Of a stretch of DNA of 64,000 bases, positions 205-59,500 are shown in pieces. The notes below the pieces were generated by a model, which saw only the letters and a list, made by a program, of their open reading frames with translations, searched no databases and was not told the origin of the DNA. Position 1 is the first letter of the stretch; every line of letters begins with the position of its first letter. This DNA comes from Branchiostoma floridae (lineage: Eukaryota > Chordata > Leptocardii > Amphioxiformes > Branchiostomatidae): assembly GCF_000003815.2 (NCBI RefSeq), contig NC_049987.1, positions 6,992,609-7,056,608 of the forward strand, written 5' to 3'. The position numbers and the translations under genes are program-made.

Positions 205-3200
205 TTGAGCTTTTTTCTGAGCTTCTTTTGTTTCTTCTTGAGTCTTGTCTGTATTTCCTCCTCTGTGCAGATCCTGAACAGCTCCAACACAGTATCTGGG
301 CCCTGCAAATAAAAATCTTATCAGCATTTTCTACTTCATCAAAATGCAAGTACTTGTTCCATAAACAAGAACTGTCTTACTTCAAAAGAATACAAACATG
401 ATCATCGATATGAATAATAACATTGAACAAGTCATAACAAGTCAGAGAATGATATCAATATTGTGTTATGACTTCAAAATAATGAGACTTATGTGGACTT
501 ACATGGCATGAGAGGATGGTACCAGTAGGGTCAAGGGTCATCGACACAACCCTGTCCCTCCCCTTCCTCAGAAGTGAGCCGACCTGGGAGGTGCACACTA
601 GTCTCTGGGGGAAACACACCATAAAATACACGTGGTACATGTATATCATATGTTTGGGGCTAGAAATTAGGCTTTGGTTAGTACCTGTATTTATATAACA
701 CAATCCAATTAGTGCAATTTTCTACAACTTAGAGGAGAATTTATGAAGTTGTCATTATCAAGAACAGATCTATCTGGCTTACATGCAATGTAAAAAATTG
801 TACCCACAAGTGTTTTAGCTTGTTTGGGTACAGGTACAAGTACACTTGACGTTCAGGTTTGATTTATACCTAAATGATGGCGATTGTATAGGTACCCAAC
901 TCCAGGAGGTAAGCAATCATGGAGAGTATCTTAAATTGTTAGTATAAGCTTACATCTTCCAACTCTTCCTGTGGGTCATCTTCCTTTTCCTCTTCTTTCA
1001 CCTCCAGAAAAGCTTTCTTGGTAGGAGGCTCATCATCTTCTTCCTCTTCTTGCTTCTATAGGTTTAAAACAAACAACATTCTGTGAGTACCTGTATGGCC
1101 TATTTTGTTTCTTTGAAGCTTGAAATTTCTTTGCAAAATGATGACTGGGAAGATGTCTACATGCATGTACCTGCTGTTTGTACTGGATGTCCCAAACCCT
1201 GAGCTCATTGTCCCCGCTTCCTGTGATCAGTCTCCTCTCGTCCGCTGTCACAGCAAAGCTCCAGACCTCCGTCCTGTGTCCCACCATGGTCTTGAAGCAA
1301 TGCTGCGTGTCCAGGTCCCACCACTTCACAAACGTATCCTTTGAGCTATAGCCGATATAACAGCAACATTCATATTTGGCATTTGTCTTTTTTGTGGATA
1401 TGTATGTTGTGAGATTAATTGTCTTATGTGGTATACAGCATTACCTTTTTACATAAAGTACACAGTCTATGATACTAGTATTACTAAGGATTGCAGTGGG
1501 TTTAAGAACTATTGGTTTAGATGACCTACATGTATAACTTAGTTGGGAACAATTGCCTCTGGGAATGTTGTTGTTACATACATTTGAGAAATGCATATTT
1601 CTGCAAAGTTCTATATCTTCAGCTATCAACAATTTCTTCAGACACCAGCAGTTCCTTTTGACTTTCTGTAGACAATTCCTTACACCCTAAAGATACATCT
1701 TTTTTCAAACATCATCTGTTCCTTACAACTTTCTTGAGGTATTAGCAGTTCCTTACCTAGTGATGAGAAAGTTCCTGTCCTTGAGAAAGTGACAGTGGGT
1801 GATCACACCTTTGTGTCCCTTCAGTCTGTAGAGACCAGACTCATTAACAATGTCCCACACAATCACATCTGTGTCCTGGGGGGAAAACATAGGATTACAG
1901 TTACAGACGATACAGGCTTTCACATTGCACATTGTACAGATACATGTACAATAAAACACAGTGTGTATTCTGCATCACCCAAGGAACCAGCCAAGCTGTA
2001 GGATAGATTGCCCAGAGGTGTGAGGATGATCTAACCTGCCAAAGGGCTGGGACCTTATTGTCATGAGCATGGTTACTAAAGAGATAAGAACATCATTATA
2101 AGAGAGTTTGACCCTGCTAACCTTTGACCCTGAGACCAGTCTCATCCCACTGTGGTCATATCCGAGCGCGGTGACGGCCCCTTTGTGTCCGCTGAAGACC
2201 ACGCCTACCTCCCCTGTCACAAGGCTGAACACCTGCACTGTGCCGTCAGAGTATCTGTCAATCAAAATCATAATACCCATCAATCAACATCGGAGTACCT
2301 GTCAATCAACATCACAATACCCATCAATCAACATCAGAGTACTGTCAATCAACATTAGAGTACCTCCCAATCAATCAAATTGAGGACATACAGTAGCATC
2401 TGGTAAATTTGAAATCATTTGTATTAAAGTTTTCTGATTGAAGAACAGAGAAATTGAAGGTATTGACTGTTTTGCTGTTTGAAGTAAATGACACATGTCA
2501 GCTCTTATACTCTGGTTATCTATTCTAAAAGTCAAAACTAATTGAAGCCTATTTGATAACTGCTGTTCTGGTAAAGGGAAGAAGACAAGTTGCCTACCCA
2601 ACAGCAACATGCTGGTTGTCAGGACTGGCAGCCAGAGCTGTGACCTCATGCTTCCCACCTTGCAGCACCAACAGCTGTAGACATGGGAGAAAGAACAACA
2701 GAGTTAAAAACTTAAATACTGTAAATGTGGTTTTATATTCACAGTTTTCGTGTTGCCAATACACAGCAAACTTAAAACCACAACGGACATTTTTTTCATG
2801 GCAGTAAGAGACTACAGTGCATGGTGCTACAATGAACTTAGAAACTTTCCTGCAACTGCAAAATTAAATCCCTGCTAATTCAAATGCATTTACAAAATGT
2901 ACAGTACTACTACTAGCAGCAGTACCTGTGTACCTGAACACTCTTTTACAAGACAGAGAGTATGTGGAGAAGGACAACCTCAAGCCTCAAGTTCACACTT
3001 ACGCCACATCTTCAGAAAAGACGCTGGAGCCGCATGTTCCCCATTTAGGAACTTTATTCGAACCGACACACAACAAACATGTTTCGCCGTGTGGCTTCCT
3101 CAGTATTATGGGCTCGAATGAGTATTCTTGTACTCTTTTACAAGACAGAGAGTACAATGCCAGTGCTCCAGCACTTTCCTGTACCAGCAAAAGTTGATTT

Positions 3201-3564
3201 GGTAATTATCTGGTGGTGCTTCAATTACAGGGGATAATATCAGATGTTTTTTGATGGGTATTCTTATCATGGGGGTACTTTTATTATTATTTTTTGGAAC
3301 GACTCCTATAATGATTACAATCCGTAAATCTCAGATAAACCCAAATCTTACTTTCTCTTCTATATCTAAGTCCAAGATAAACACAAATGTTACCTTCTCT
3401 CCGATTCGTAGGTCCCAGATGAAAACATGCTCCACAGCAGCCACTGCTGCATATCGTCCCTTCACGCCACGCAAACAGAGCAGCACCACGGGGGCCTTGG
3501 GGCTGGCCACCACACCCCACATGGAGGCGGGAACATAGCGCAGGTACTGTTTGGTGACAGGCAT
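205..3564 (-). CDS. WDR3: WD repeat-containing protein 3, N-terminal part (gene continues past the left edge)
   Basis: Eight minus-strand coding exons read in order: 3564-3394, 2674-2598, 2254-2122, 1875-1757, 1345-1171, 1055-954, 604-503 and 302-205, with GT-AG borders and matching phases, about 325 residues. The start is the ATG at 3564, giving [19 protein letters not shown], which matches the start region of animal WDR3. WD40 blades are visible ([62 protein letters not shown]), then an acidic linker exon rich in E and D, then [10 protein letters not shown] and a basic helix [13 protein letters not shown]3 (yeast Dip2/Utp12) is a nucleolar component of the small-subunit processome needed for 18S rRNA maturation. 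The remaining C-terminal WD repeats and Utp12 domain lie left of the window. Exons 1, 3 and 4 have tandemly duplicated copies of their edges. Confidence 0.93.
1635..1760 (-). repeat. Minisatellite spanning the splice donor of WDR3 exon 4
   Basis: On the minus strand the donor reads gtaaggaactgc. Degenerate copies follow inside the intron (gtaaggaacag, gtaaggaattg, aaaaggaactgctgg), spaced roughly 40-50 bases apart. The first copies keep GTAAGGA, a plausible 5' splice site. The array starts at the exon edge, so it looks seeded by the junction. Confidence 0.6.
2245..2370 (-). repeat. Minisatellite spanning the splice acceptor of WDR3 exon 3
   Basis: The real junction reads tgattgacag|ATACTCTG on the minus strand. 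Going upstream into the intron, the same block returns as gattgacag|GTACTCCG, again near 2340 and in a decayed form near 2355. The copies are separated by variants of gatgttgattgatgggtatt. Each copy carries an AG preceded by the same short tract and followed by a copy of the first 6-8 exon bases. Confidence 0.75.
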
Positions 3565-3663
3565 GGTGGAACTCAGGAGCAACTGTCTGGAGGGATAAAA
3601 TACACAAACTGTAACAGTGGGCTTCAAGCGCCACCAACTGACCAGTCCAACTGGTCCGGACCT

Positions 3664-57527: not shown

Positions 57528-59108
57528 AGGCGTAACGTTATACGTCTGGGGTGGAAAACTCAACTGCACCTCTTCTATTACCGTGACGGTGGCGTACGTT
57601 TCTATGTGAATAGAAATAACTTTGATAAACGAGCTGAGCTTGATTCATGTTTAACATACAAAACGTAGAGGGCCATGATAAAGAAAATATCAGACCTTGA
57701 TGACCATGGCATCAACCACTCAAGGGAGAATGAGGAAAAGTGGGTGCTGAAGAGGAATGGTTGCTCCAGATAAATGGGTTGGTTGGCCGATAGCCTGGTA
57801 TCCAATTTGTTATAGACGGAGATTCTTAAAGTGCAAGGATAAAAAGACTGGGCAGCTATAACAGGTTCGGATACCCGGCTAGTTGGCTGGATGAGTTGTA
57901 TATGTATGTGTATGTGTGATTCCAGTTACAGAATTATAAGACACATTTACACATTCTAACTCTTGTTCAAATGCATCTATCTTCACCGTGGTGATAACAT
58001 TGTAAAAATATGTGTCAGAAAAGACTGTTTTTAATTCCTGTTTTTAATTCCTGGCCAACAGTGCCAAAGCCAGCAGAAATCCTCAATGTCAAATATGGCC
58101 ACTTTTGGGTGATGCTGTCAATATATCATGTGTTGATTGGGGTATATATATACATATAGATGCTTTGGGGGACCACAAAAGGGGTTGCTGGAAGGTAAAA
58201 AGAAGACAGATGGTTGCTCAGCGGACTTTGTAGAACTGGATGGTATTGTTTCAATGTGGCTTGTGACTAGAGATGGTACCTGTACCCATTTACGGAGATT
58301 AACATACTCACAATCTTGTATAGTGCCAAAGTACTTTTATTGAAGCATTTGCTGCATGTACATTGCAGGCATGGAGGGACATGTTTATTGTAAAGTCATC
58401 AACACAGCAAGTCTTATACAGATCACAGACTTGGTAGTATCAGAAGCTATGGCCATGACACTAAACTGGGATGGGCTGTGCTCTACTGTTGTATAACATG
58501 CACTTTTATACACTGTTAGACATCCAGATAATAAAGTAGACAATGCAAAATTGGCTCAAGCAACTGATCCAAACTACAAAACTTATCCCAGTAAGTTTTG
58601 GATTGTGTAATATACACTCTGGCATTATGGTTTTGTATCATTTTGTGATCTACCGGTATATATAGACTGCTAGAAAGTGTCATTAACTCAGAGACACAAG
58701 ACAAAAGGTAATTTTCAGAGCTGTTCTAACCTGCCTGGCTGTCTGCTTCATGTCCCTACACTACAGTTTATAAATGTCGGCTATCCAACATGGAATGTTG
58801 CACACTTATGCAGCTTCTTTGAAGACCATTAAAGTTTCACATTTCTCTACTGACTTCTCTGTCTGTCATAATCACAATGATACACTAGGTTACAAAAGTA
58901 TGCCTTATACCAAATTCAACAACAGAGCCTACATGTTCCTCATGGAAAGAGACCTTGAAACATTTTTCATAAACCTTTATTCCTCTACTAACAAGTATCA
59001 CTCTACCTTTCTAGTAAAAAGATATGACACATGTAGTATTACTACTTTCCTACACTAATTCCTACCCCTACATCAGACCCCTTTATCAAAATCCAGAAAA
59101 GTTTATAC
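57528..59108. other. Spacer between receptor B and MSH2
   Basis: Receptor B 3'UTR and intergenic DNA. No recognisable exon. A 94-codon open frame at 58774-59058 has no similarity I recognise. Confidence 0.5.
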
Positions 59109-59500
59109 AAGTCAGGTATATCAGAAGTCTTACAGCAAGGCATTGTGCATGTCTATTGCTGTGACTTCTTATATAAAAAGTCTTGCACCAAGACATCATC
59201 AATGTAGGGTTGTCTCAAGTCATGACTTATCAGTCAGAAGTCTCGCGTCAAGACATTGTGGATGTTGTCTAAAGTCATGGCTACTTACATCAAAACTCTT
59301 GCACCAAGACATCATAGATATAGGGGTTGTCTAACGACATGACTTCCCACATCAGAAGTCTTGTGCCAAAACGTCGTGGATGTAGGGGTTATCATGAGCC
59401 ATGACAAGTGCCAAAACGTTGTGGATGAAGGGGTTGTTTCTCACATTAGAAGTCTCGCGCCAAGACATCGTGGATGTAGGGGTTGTCCCGAGCCATGACC
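59109..59500 (-). repeat. Minisatellite derived from the 3' end of the MSH2 coding sequence
   Basis: About seven units of 50-60 bases contain agaagtctcgcgccaagac, atcgtggatgtaggggttgt and cccgagccatgac, becoming more decayed away from the gene. The first unit is the last 17 codons and stop of MSH2. The unit at 59353-59405 still reads [17 protein letters not shown] plus stop on the minus strand, against [17 protein letters not shown] in the gene. Confidence 0.85.

Follow-up and report, generated by a model that had tools for sequence, protein, structure and literature searches.

Tandem self-copies at exon edges in an amphioxus region probably reflect frequent, tolerated local duplication

A stretch of 64,000 nucleotides of Branchiostoma floridae DNA (the window) contains minisatellites that span exon edges, and these are an already described phenomenon, the amphioxus mirages. 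We put at roughly 0.6 the probability that such arrays are explained by frequent local duplication that is tolerated up to the exon edges. The answer on edge preference hinges on the null model: the density of duplication suffices for about half of the crossing arrays or more (11.0 of 20 under the corrected placement null, below), and a preference for edges, about two-fold at most, may add to this.

According to the available parts of two reports (PMC3087553, PMC3902484), mirages occur in the amphioxus Adh3, globin BflGb6 and BflGb9, PGBD5 and troponin C genes, with units of 10-72 bp in Adh3 or about 150-160 bp in the globin genes; the first of these, in the same parts, proposes them as raw material of new introns. 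The earlier note had pointed to the likeness to mirages, and the arrays described here do match these partial descriptions: they are degenerate, minisatellite-like tandem copies lying over exon-intron borders, at acceptors as well as donors, with units of tens of bases to more than 100 and with AG or GT kept in many copies. They differ from the mirages in these accounts in affecting many more genes at once and in being tested against chance; our search of the literature on mirages found no test of edge frequency versus chance. Ordinary intronic minisatellites have similar units, copy numbers and density, whereas here a subset has exon bases at one end.

The annotated set comprised 264 kb around the window and 70 kb of dynein genes, which are unlinked to the window region, with 457 splice edges in total. 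The final gene model contains 195 exons and reproduces 13 of 16 seed exons exactly, though the same seeds trained the finder; it replaced an initial gene-finder run that over-predicted (1378 exons). Receptor exons 17761, 18182, 50255 and 52773 were entered or corrected by hand. The start of exon 50255 is off by one relative to a separate receptor exon annotation, and for receptor A exon 7 we kept the predicted start at 40236, where the separate annotation suggests 40219. Excluded from the counts were introns shorter than 40 or longer than 9000 bases (including a 22-kb receptor A intron), arrays entering both flanking exons, low-complexity repeats, and predicted exons with a negative score or outside genes recognised by eye. 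Repeats were detected with Tandem Repeats Finder and with a more sensitive lag scan, which yielded 0 matches at score 18 in the block-shuffled window and 0 at score 16 in the Markov-shuffled 264 kb. Within the noncoding part of the 264 kb, repeats of period 8-300 occupy about 9%; the two detectors combined give a coverage of 9.4%.

The features of the window on which the comparison rests are the following.

1635..1760, minus strand: region past the donor of WDR3 exon 4, containing a single gapped and degenerate copy (weak)
2122..2254, minus strand: WDR3 exon 3 (gene model; collinear with human WDR3)
2246..2374, minus strand: tandem array, units 22/44, across the WDR3 exon 3 acceptor
3325..3427, minus strand: array, unit 42, about 2.4 copies, across the WDR3 exon 1 donor, with 34 exon bases
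3394..3564, minus strand: WDR3 exon 1 including the start codon (gene model; collinearity with human WDR3)
3531..3870, minus strand: WDR3 start region and a single copy of about 70 bp including the ATG (spaced duplicate, no array)
7087..7264, plus strand: array, unit 53, across the acceptor of the dioxygenase-like exon 7250-7355 ("exon 8")
16643..16869, plus strand: array, unit 44, across the receptor A exon 3 acceptor (exon 16852-16990)
56722..56906, plus strand: array, unit 62, adjoining the receptor B exon 12 acceptor (exon 56911-57038)
59162..59499, minus strand: six degenerate copies of the MSH2 coding end, past the stop (last exon 59446-59607)

The earlier note had listed eight gene edges with copies of themselves next door. 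Four are clear: the MSH2 coding end and the acceptors of WDR3 exon 3, dioxygenase exon 8 and receptor A exon 3, whose junctions lie at 2254/2255, 7249/7250 and 16851/16852 and whose arrays take in nine (in the terminal copy), 15 and 18 exon bases, respectively. Three are weaker. At the WDR3 start, one extra copy lies 270 bp upstream in the gene. Past the WDR3 exon 4 donor, the next 140 bp contain a single degenerate gapped copy (score 13, where 1000 shuffles average 7.4; P = 0.001, as a single test), and no repeat is reported there by Tandem Repeats Finder or by the lag scan. At receptor B exon 12, the array leaves a gap of 4 bp to junction 56910/56911 and contains 0 exon bases, being adjacent to the edge only. 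The eighth, at the receptor B start, was not recovered: the best self-match in 49400-50300 scored 8.5, no better than 20 shuffles (mean 9.0, maximum 10).

The WDR3 exon 1 donor array is an edge that the earlier list had overlooked. Like the three clear acceptors, it spans a splice border and carries exon bases, as mirages do; the MSH2 stop and the WDR3 start are not splice borders. The principal lags at most crossed edges, 20-137, fit mirage units, several falling between the two published ranges. The predicted WDR3 protein is collinear with human WDR3 (1177 bits), and the alignment is ungapped at five of the six crossed junctions of the WDR3 model; at the sixth, the donor at window position -772, it breaks because the next exon is absent from the model. 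Arrays had also been said to begin at the junction. This is not supported as worded: crossing arrays reach 6-66 bases into the exon, and the register of the junction within the unit is compatible with uniformity (20 arrays, KS P = 0.24), unit ends not being fixed to the splice site.

Rotating the repeats along the sequence gives a first measure of chance. Local repeats cross 4 of 80 splice edges in the window against 6.7 expected, 16 of 284 in the 264 kb against 23.8, and 12 of 204 outside the window against 17.0; restricting the repeats to those of Tandem Repeats Finder gives 8 of 284 edges against 17.7. The number of edges, which had been taken to suggest a general mechanism, is thus below this coverage-based expectation. 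Lag-repeat coverage of the first 10 intron bases is 5.9% at both acceptors and donors, versus a noncoding mean of 8.6%, and drops with depth into the exon (4.8, 3.1 and 1.0% at acceptors; 6.4, 5.1 and 2.3% at donors), a pattern that trimming of the exon side by selection would produce. The ratio of coverage at intron ends (first and last 20 bases) to that in the middle is 0.75 (0.48-1.13; 120 introns). By itself, the rotation null would amount to outright rejection of edge seeding. It inflates the expectation, however: in any array, the terminal copy is the only one that can reach over an edge. As the rotation null is too strict in this one respect, a placement null was added.

In the placement null, the positions of lag-detected arrays are varied within the same intron. 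Crossing arrays number 20 of 62, where 8.75 are expected without correction, and by itself this null would read as support for edge seeding. It errs on the lenient side, since conservation of the exons also preserves copies; a simulated correction was therefore added, with all exon bases fixed and uniform ages up to 0.45 substitutions per site. In the simulation, the detection rate of crossing copies was 0.93 to 1.5 times that of interior copies. The corrected expectation is 10.98 (P = 0.0015), with 16 of 51 crossing outside the window against 9.1 (P = 0.007) and a gene-bootstrap ratio of 1.82 (1.19-2.60). An edge preference is possible rather than demonstrated.

Tolerated local duplication would account for these data as follows. 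Tandem duplications of about 20-150 bp would arise often in the genome, as they do in the 264 kb, and those inside exons would be removed by selection. Duplications that cross an edge would survive because splicing presumably retains the site nearest the exon, so that the added copies remain part of the intron; the ungapped WDR3 alignment at five of six crossed junctions agrees with this. Exon edges would then simply mark where tolerance ends, and a crossing copy may stay recognisable for longer because its exon half is conserved.

A less probable reading is that exon edges seed the arrays, with splice-site-like sequence or a transcription- or repair-linked process triggering slippage or microhomology-mediated duplication. 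The corrected placement excess argues for this, and it persists in introns shorter than 1500 bp (19 of 47 versus 10.4, P = 0.0017). So do some loci at which the junction is repeated several times, such as the donors of WDR3 at -772 (near-perfect copies of a 25-bp unit) and NOTUM-like 1 (a 51-bp unit). However, the junction has no preferred register, and Tandem Repeats Finder arrays show no significant excess under corrected placement (8 of 56 versus 5.9, P = 0.22) and none outside the window (5 of 45 versus 4.9). Nor is there a significant excess in the dynein genes alone (4 of 18 versus 3.2) or when exons are masked during detection (7 of 40 versus 6.8); this last test is biased toward no excess, because two intronic copies are required, and its rule for extending arrays failed to pick up the crossing at receptor A exon 3, so that the count should be at least 8. 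Leaving out WDR3 makes the excess marginal (14 of 52 versus 9.2, P = 0.045; outside the window 12 of 44 versus 7.7, P = 0.052), and doubling the simulated detection bias weakens it to P = 0.19. On the side of an edge preference, among arrays of identity at least 0.9, 8 of 20 cross against 2.2, uncorrected; at identity of at least 0.95 in the 264 kb, 2 of 6 cross against 0.8 (P = 0.17).

A genome-wide test of paired donor words was discarded as evidence. The word MAGGTRAGT has 26,530 single sites and 678 pairs 9-39 bases apart, and its reversed control 19,446 sites and 47 pairs, which taken alone would favour edge seeding about ten-fold. With a second control word there were 89 pairs, and with its reverse 193, from about 7,500 and 7,900 sites expected under a Markov model of the 334 kb rather than counted directly. 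Moreover, the pairs clump in arrays (the 67 listed on C1 fall in about 19 places), and the word matches 0 of 228 annotated donors and therefore says little on real edges. The first version of the test was dominated by a dispersed 51-bp repeat.

It is very unlikely that the copies are functional and kept as decoy or alternative splice sites. AG or GT is kept in many of the copies inspected, but it is lost in some (PLB1-like, NOTUM-like 2) and the copies are degenerate; among receptor paralogs A, B and C they are sporadic, with one crossed and one abutted of 68 annotated edges, and mirages leave normal splicing undisturbed, according to the portions available of PMC3087553 and PMC3902484. We give just as little credence to an assembly artefact at repeats or to mobile-element satellites lying at edges by chance: gaps are present (200 N in the window, 1945 N in the 264 kb), one globin mirage had an aberrant draft assembly (PMC3087553, available part) and one dispersed 51-bp repeat bears a donor-like word, but at 12 flank loci the units hold the host gene's own exon bases, differing by locus, most copies there diverge by substitutions, and re-sequencing argues against assembly error according to the PGBD5 authors (PMC3902484, available part).

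In the available parts of the sources, intron gain through tandem duplication of AG/GT proto-splice sites (the Rogers model, PMC3087553; potato RdRp, PMC4974935) has in common with these arrays a local duplication carrying splice sites; unlike in that model and in potato RdRp, the copies here remain within existing introns. It is conceivable, though doubtful, that tandem duplication occurs at exon edges at least twice as often as elsewhere in the same introns, with a few per cent of junctions bearing young self-copies; if true, intron gain and border shift could draw on a permanent stock of duplicated splice sites. The excess that remains is small, and a whole-genome test with RNA-supported borders is therefore needed before a special mechanism is claimed. 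With about one splice edge in 18 carrying a detectable self-copy in the 264 kb, gene predictors and studies of intron gain must expect decoy splice sites.

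Tandem Repeats Finder returned 27 rows in the window and an ungapped lag scan gave 20 clusters, compared to 0 matches in a block-shuffled control; the gene edges were then inspected directly. Among eight gene edges that an earlier note had listed as having adjacent minisatellites, arrays are clear at the MSH2 coding end and at the acceptors of WDR3 exon 3, the dioxygenase-like exon and exon 3 of receptor A (one of three paralogous genes, A, B and C). The WDR3 start does have a copy, a lone one 270 bp off, the WDR3 exon 4 donor carries one degenerate copy (P=0.001) and is weak, and the array at receptor B exon 12 is present but ends 4 bp short of the exon. 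An array at the receptor B start was not found. An array with unit 42 at the WDR3 exon 1 donor is additional to these edges. The positions, units, included exon bases and counts are direct observations. Other repeats in the window are as follows.

6724-6827: (GT)n microsatellite, beginning 13 bp past the donor predicted at the end (6711) of a dioxygenase-like exon
18634-19770 and 21815-22972: inverted pair of ~1.15 kb, 93.7% identical, inside the long intron of receptor A, mobile-element-like
24747-26169: 36-bp array of ~39 copies, open in several frames on either strand, with ORFs of 600 and 447 codons; C4 has weaker relatives

A dispersed 51-bp tandem repeat with CAGGTAAGT occurs on many chromosomes (for example C1:9479866 and C3:7451737, among the matches listed). 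Among these matches it appears several times in opposite orientations ~0.8-2 kb apart, and it resembles the terminal repeats of a mobile element.

The splice-border arrays are alike in form to amphioxus mirages, which are tandem copies spanning exon-intron borders. Minisatellite-like duplication of exon-intron borders is described for the globin genes BflGb6 and BflGb9 (PMC3087553), in a paper that cites earlier Adh3 work as the origin of the name, together with further loci, and mirages are reported in PGBD5, with a troponin C case cited (PMC3902484). No enrichment test of mirages at exon borders was found in the library and with the terms used.

WDR3 was identified by its match to human WDR3 (1177 bits), and MSH2 and the receptor A Ig domains by searches in this analysis; the names "dioxygenase", NOTUM-like, RSPH3, ferredoxin, ENPP, SORD-like, PLB1-like and SON-like were given by eye from translations. 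The predicted WDR3 has 23 phase-consistent exons, and repeats that cross, that is, include exon bases across the splice edge, occur at 6 of its 44 annotated edges. Alignment to the human protein is gap-free at 5/6 crossed junctions, the break at the -772 donor (negative coordinates denote the left flank) arising because the next exon is absent from the model. Receptors A, B and C have a common exon structure; of the 68 edges annotated in them, one is crossed (receptor A exon 3) and one abutted (receptor B exon 12), which fits sporadic array gain.

-8274 to -7602: WDR3 intron 21/22, with a crossing repeat at both ends (unit 20 on the donor side; on the acceptor side, copies at 101, 149, 217 and 264 bp)
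-14601 to -10132: receptor C, the third paralog, with an exon series matching the others
-88971 to -88358: two side-by-side copies of a ferredoxin-like exon, alike but not identical
61690-62484 (+): long single open frame encoding a tyrosine kinase domain, antisense to MSH2, with the domain located between two MSH2 exons of the gene model

For the test set, 100 kb was added on either side of the window, and a self-trained gene finder predicted 195 exons in the resulting 264 kb. It recovered 13/16 seed exons exactly and 15/16 with at least one edge, these seeds being also its training data. From 14 by-eye genes, 148 exons were retained, contributing 143 acceptors and 141 donors; four receptor exons were hand-entered or hand-corrected. 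Dynein heavy-chain regions found via Pfam PF08393 (70 kb; 37, 38 and 12 exons) formed an unlinked second set, giving 457 splice edges in all. The textbook donor word MAGGTRAGT matches 0/228 annotated donors across all sets, with ~13 predicted from single-position frequencies by our own arithmetic; a strong exon side and a strong intron side seem mutually exclusive in these donors, possibly as a gene-finder artefact.

Measured as coverage, there is no excess of crossed edges. Across the 264 kb, lag-repeat coverage is 8.6% for noncoding and 2.3% for coding DNA. It is 5.9% over the 10 intron bases nearest the edge, for acceptors and donors alike, and on the exon side it declines over 40 bases from 4.8 to 1.0% and from 6.4 to 2.3%, respectively. 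Coverage of the outer 20 bases at each intron end is 0.75 times that of the intron middle (0.48-1.13; 120 introns). Compared to a null in which the repeats were rotated, 16/284 edges are crossed against 23.8 expected in the 264 kb, 4/80 against 6.7 in the window and 12/204 against 17.0 in the flanks.

A second null placed each array randomly in its own intron or over one of its edges. Because a neutral duplication crosses an edge with its terminal copy only, the expectation was based on unit length, not array length. Uncorrected, 20/62 arrays cross versus 8.75 expected (window, 4/11 versus 1.5; flanks, 12/33 versus 4.7; dynein, 4/18 versus 2.6). Simulations in which exon bases were held fixed while introns decayed showed crossing copies to be detected 0.93-1.5 times as often as interior ones, a bias that raises the expectation to 10.98 (P=0.0015; observed/expected 1.82, gene-bootstrap interval 1.19-2.60). 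After this correction 14/52 cross versus 9.2 with WDR3 left out (P=0.045) and 16/51 versus 9.1 outside the window (P=0.007), and dynein shows no significant excess (4/18 versus 3.2, P=0.40). The excess outside the window comes from spaced two-copy duplicates (8/22 versus 3.6, P=0.013) rather than tandem arrays proper (8/29 versus 5.5, P=0.14). Doubling the detection bias beyond the simulation gives P=0.19.

Significant border enrichment did not emerge with Tandem Repeats Finder arrays, a variant near to the test proposed in the earlier note (8/56 versus 5.9, P=0.22; window, 3/11 versus 1.0, P=0.06; outside, 5/45 versus 4.9). Exon-masked detection likewise gave 7/40 versus 6.8, a variant that leans to no excess since it requires two intronic copies and its extension rule missed receptor A exon 3. 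Where the junction falls within the unit is consistent with a uniform distribution (20 arrays, KS P=0.24), thus unit ends do not lie at the splice site, contrary to seeding at splice-site-like sequence.

The number of arrays in the window, from which a general mechanism had been suggested, is no argument for a special one. Local duplication would be frequent as background, selection would trim duplications inside exons and copies with one half in an exon would be better preserved; together these account for about half or more of the arrays. The data would permit, without proving, a preference for edges of up to two-fold. The duplications may originate by slippage or unequal exchange, and the copies are probably neutral, as the exon-proximal site would be used. 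The splice-border arrays are real and belong to a known kind, being mirages in form, and they are frequent in the DNA analysed.
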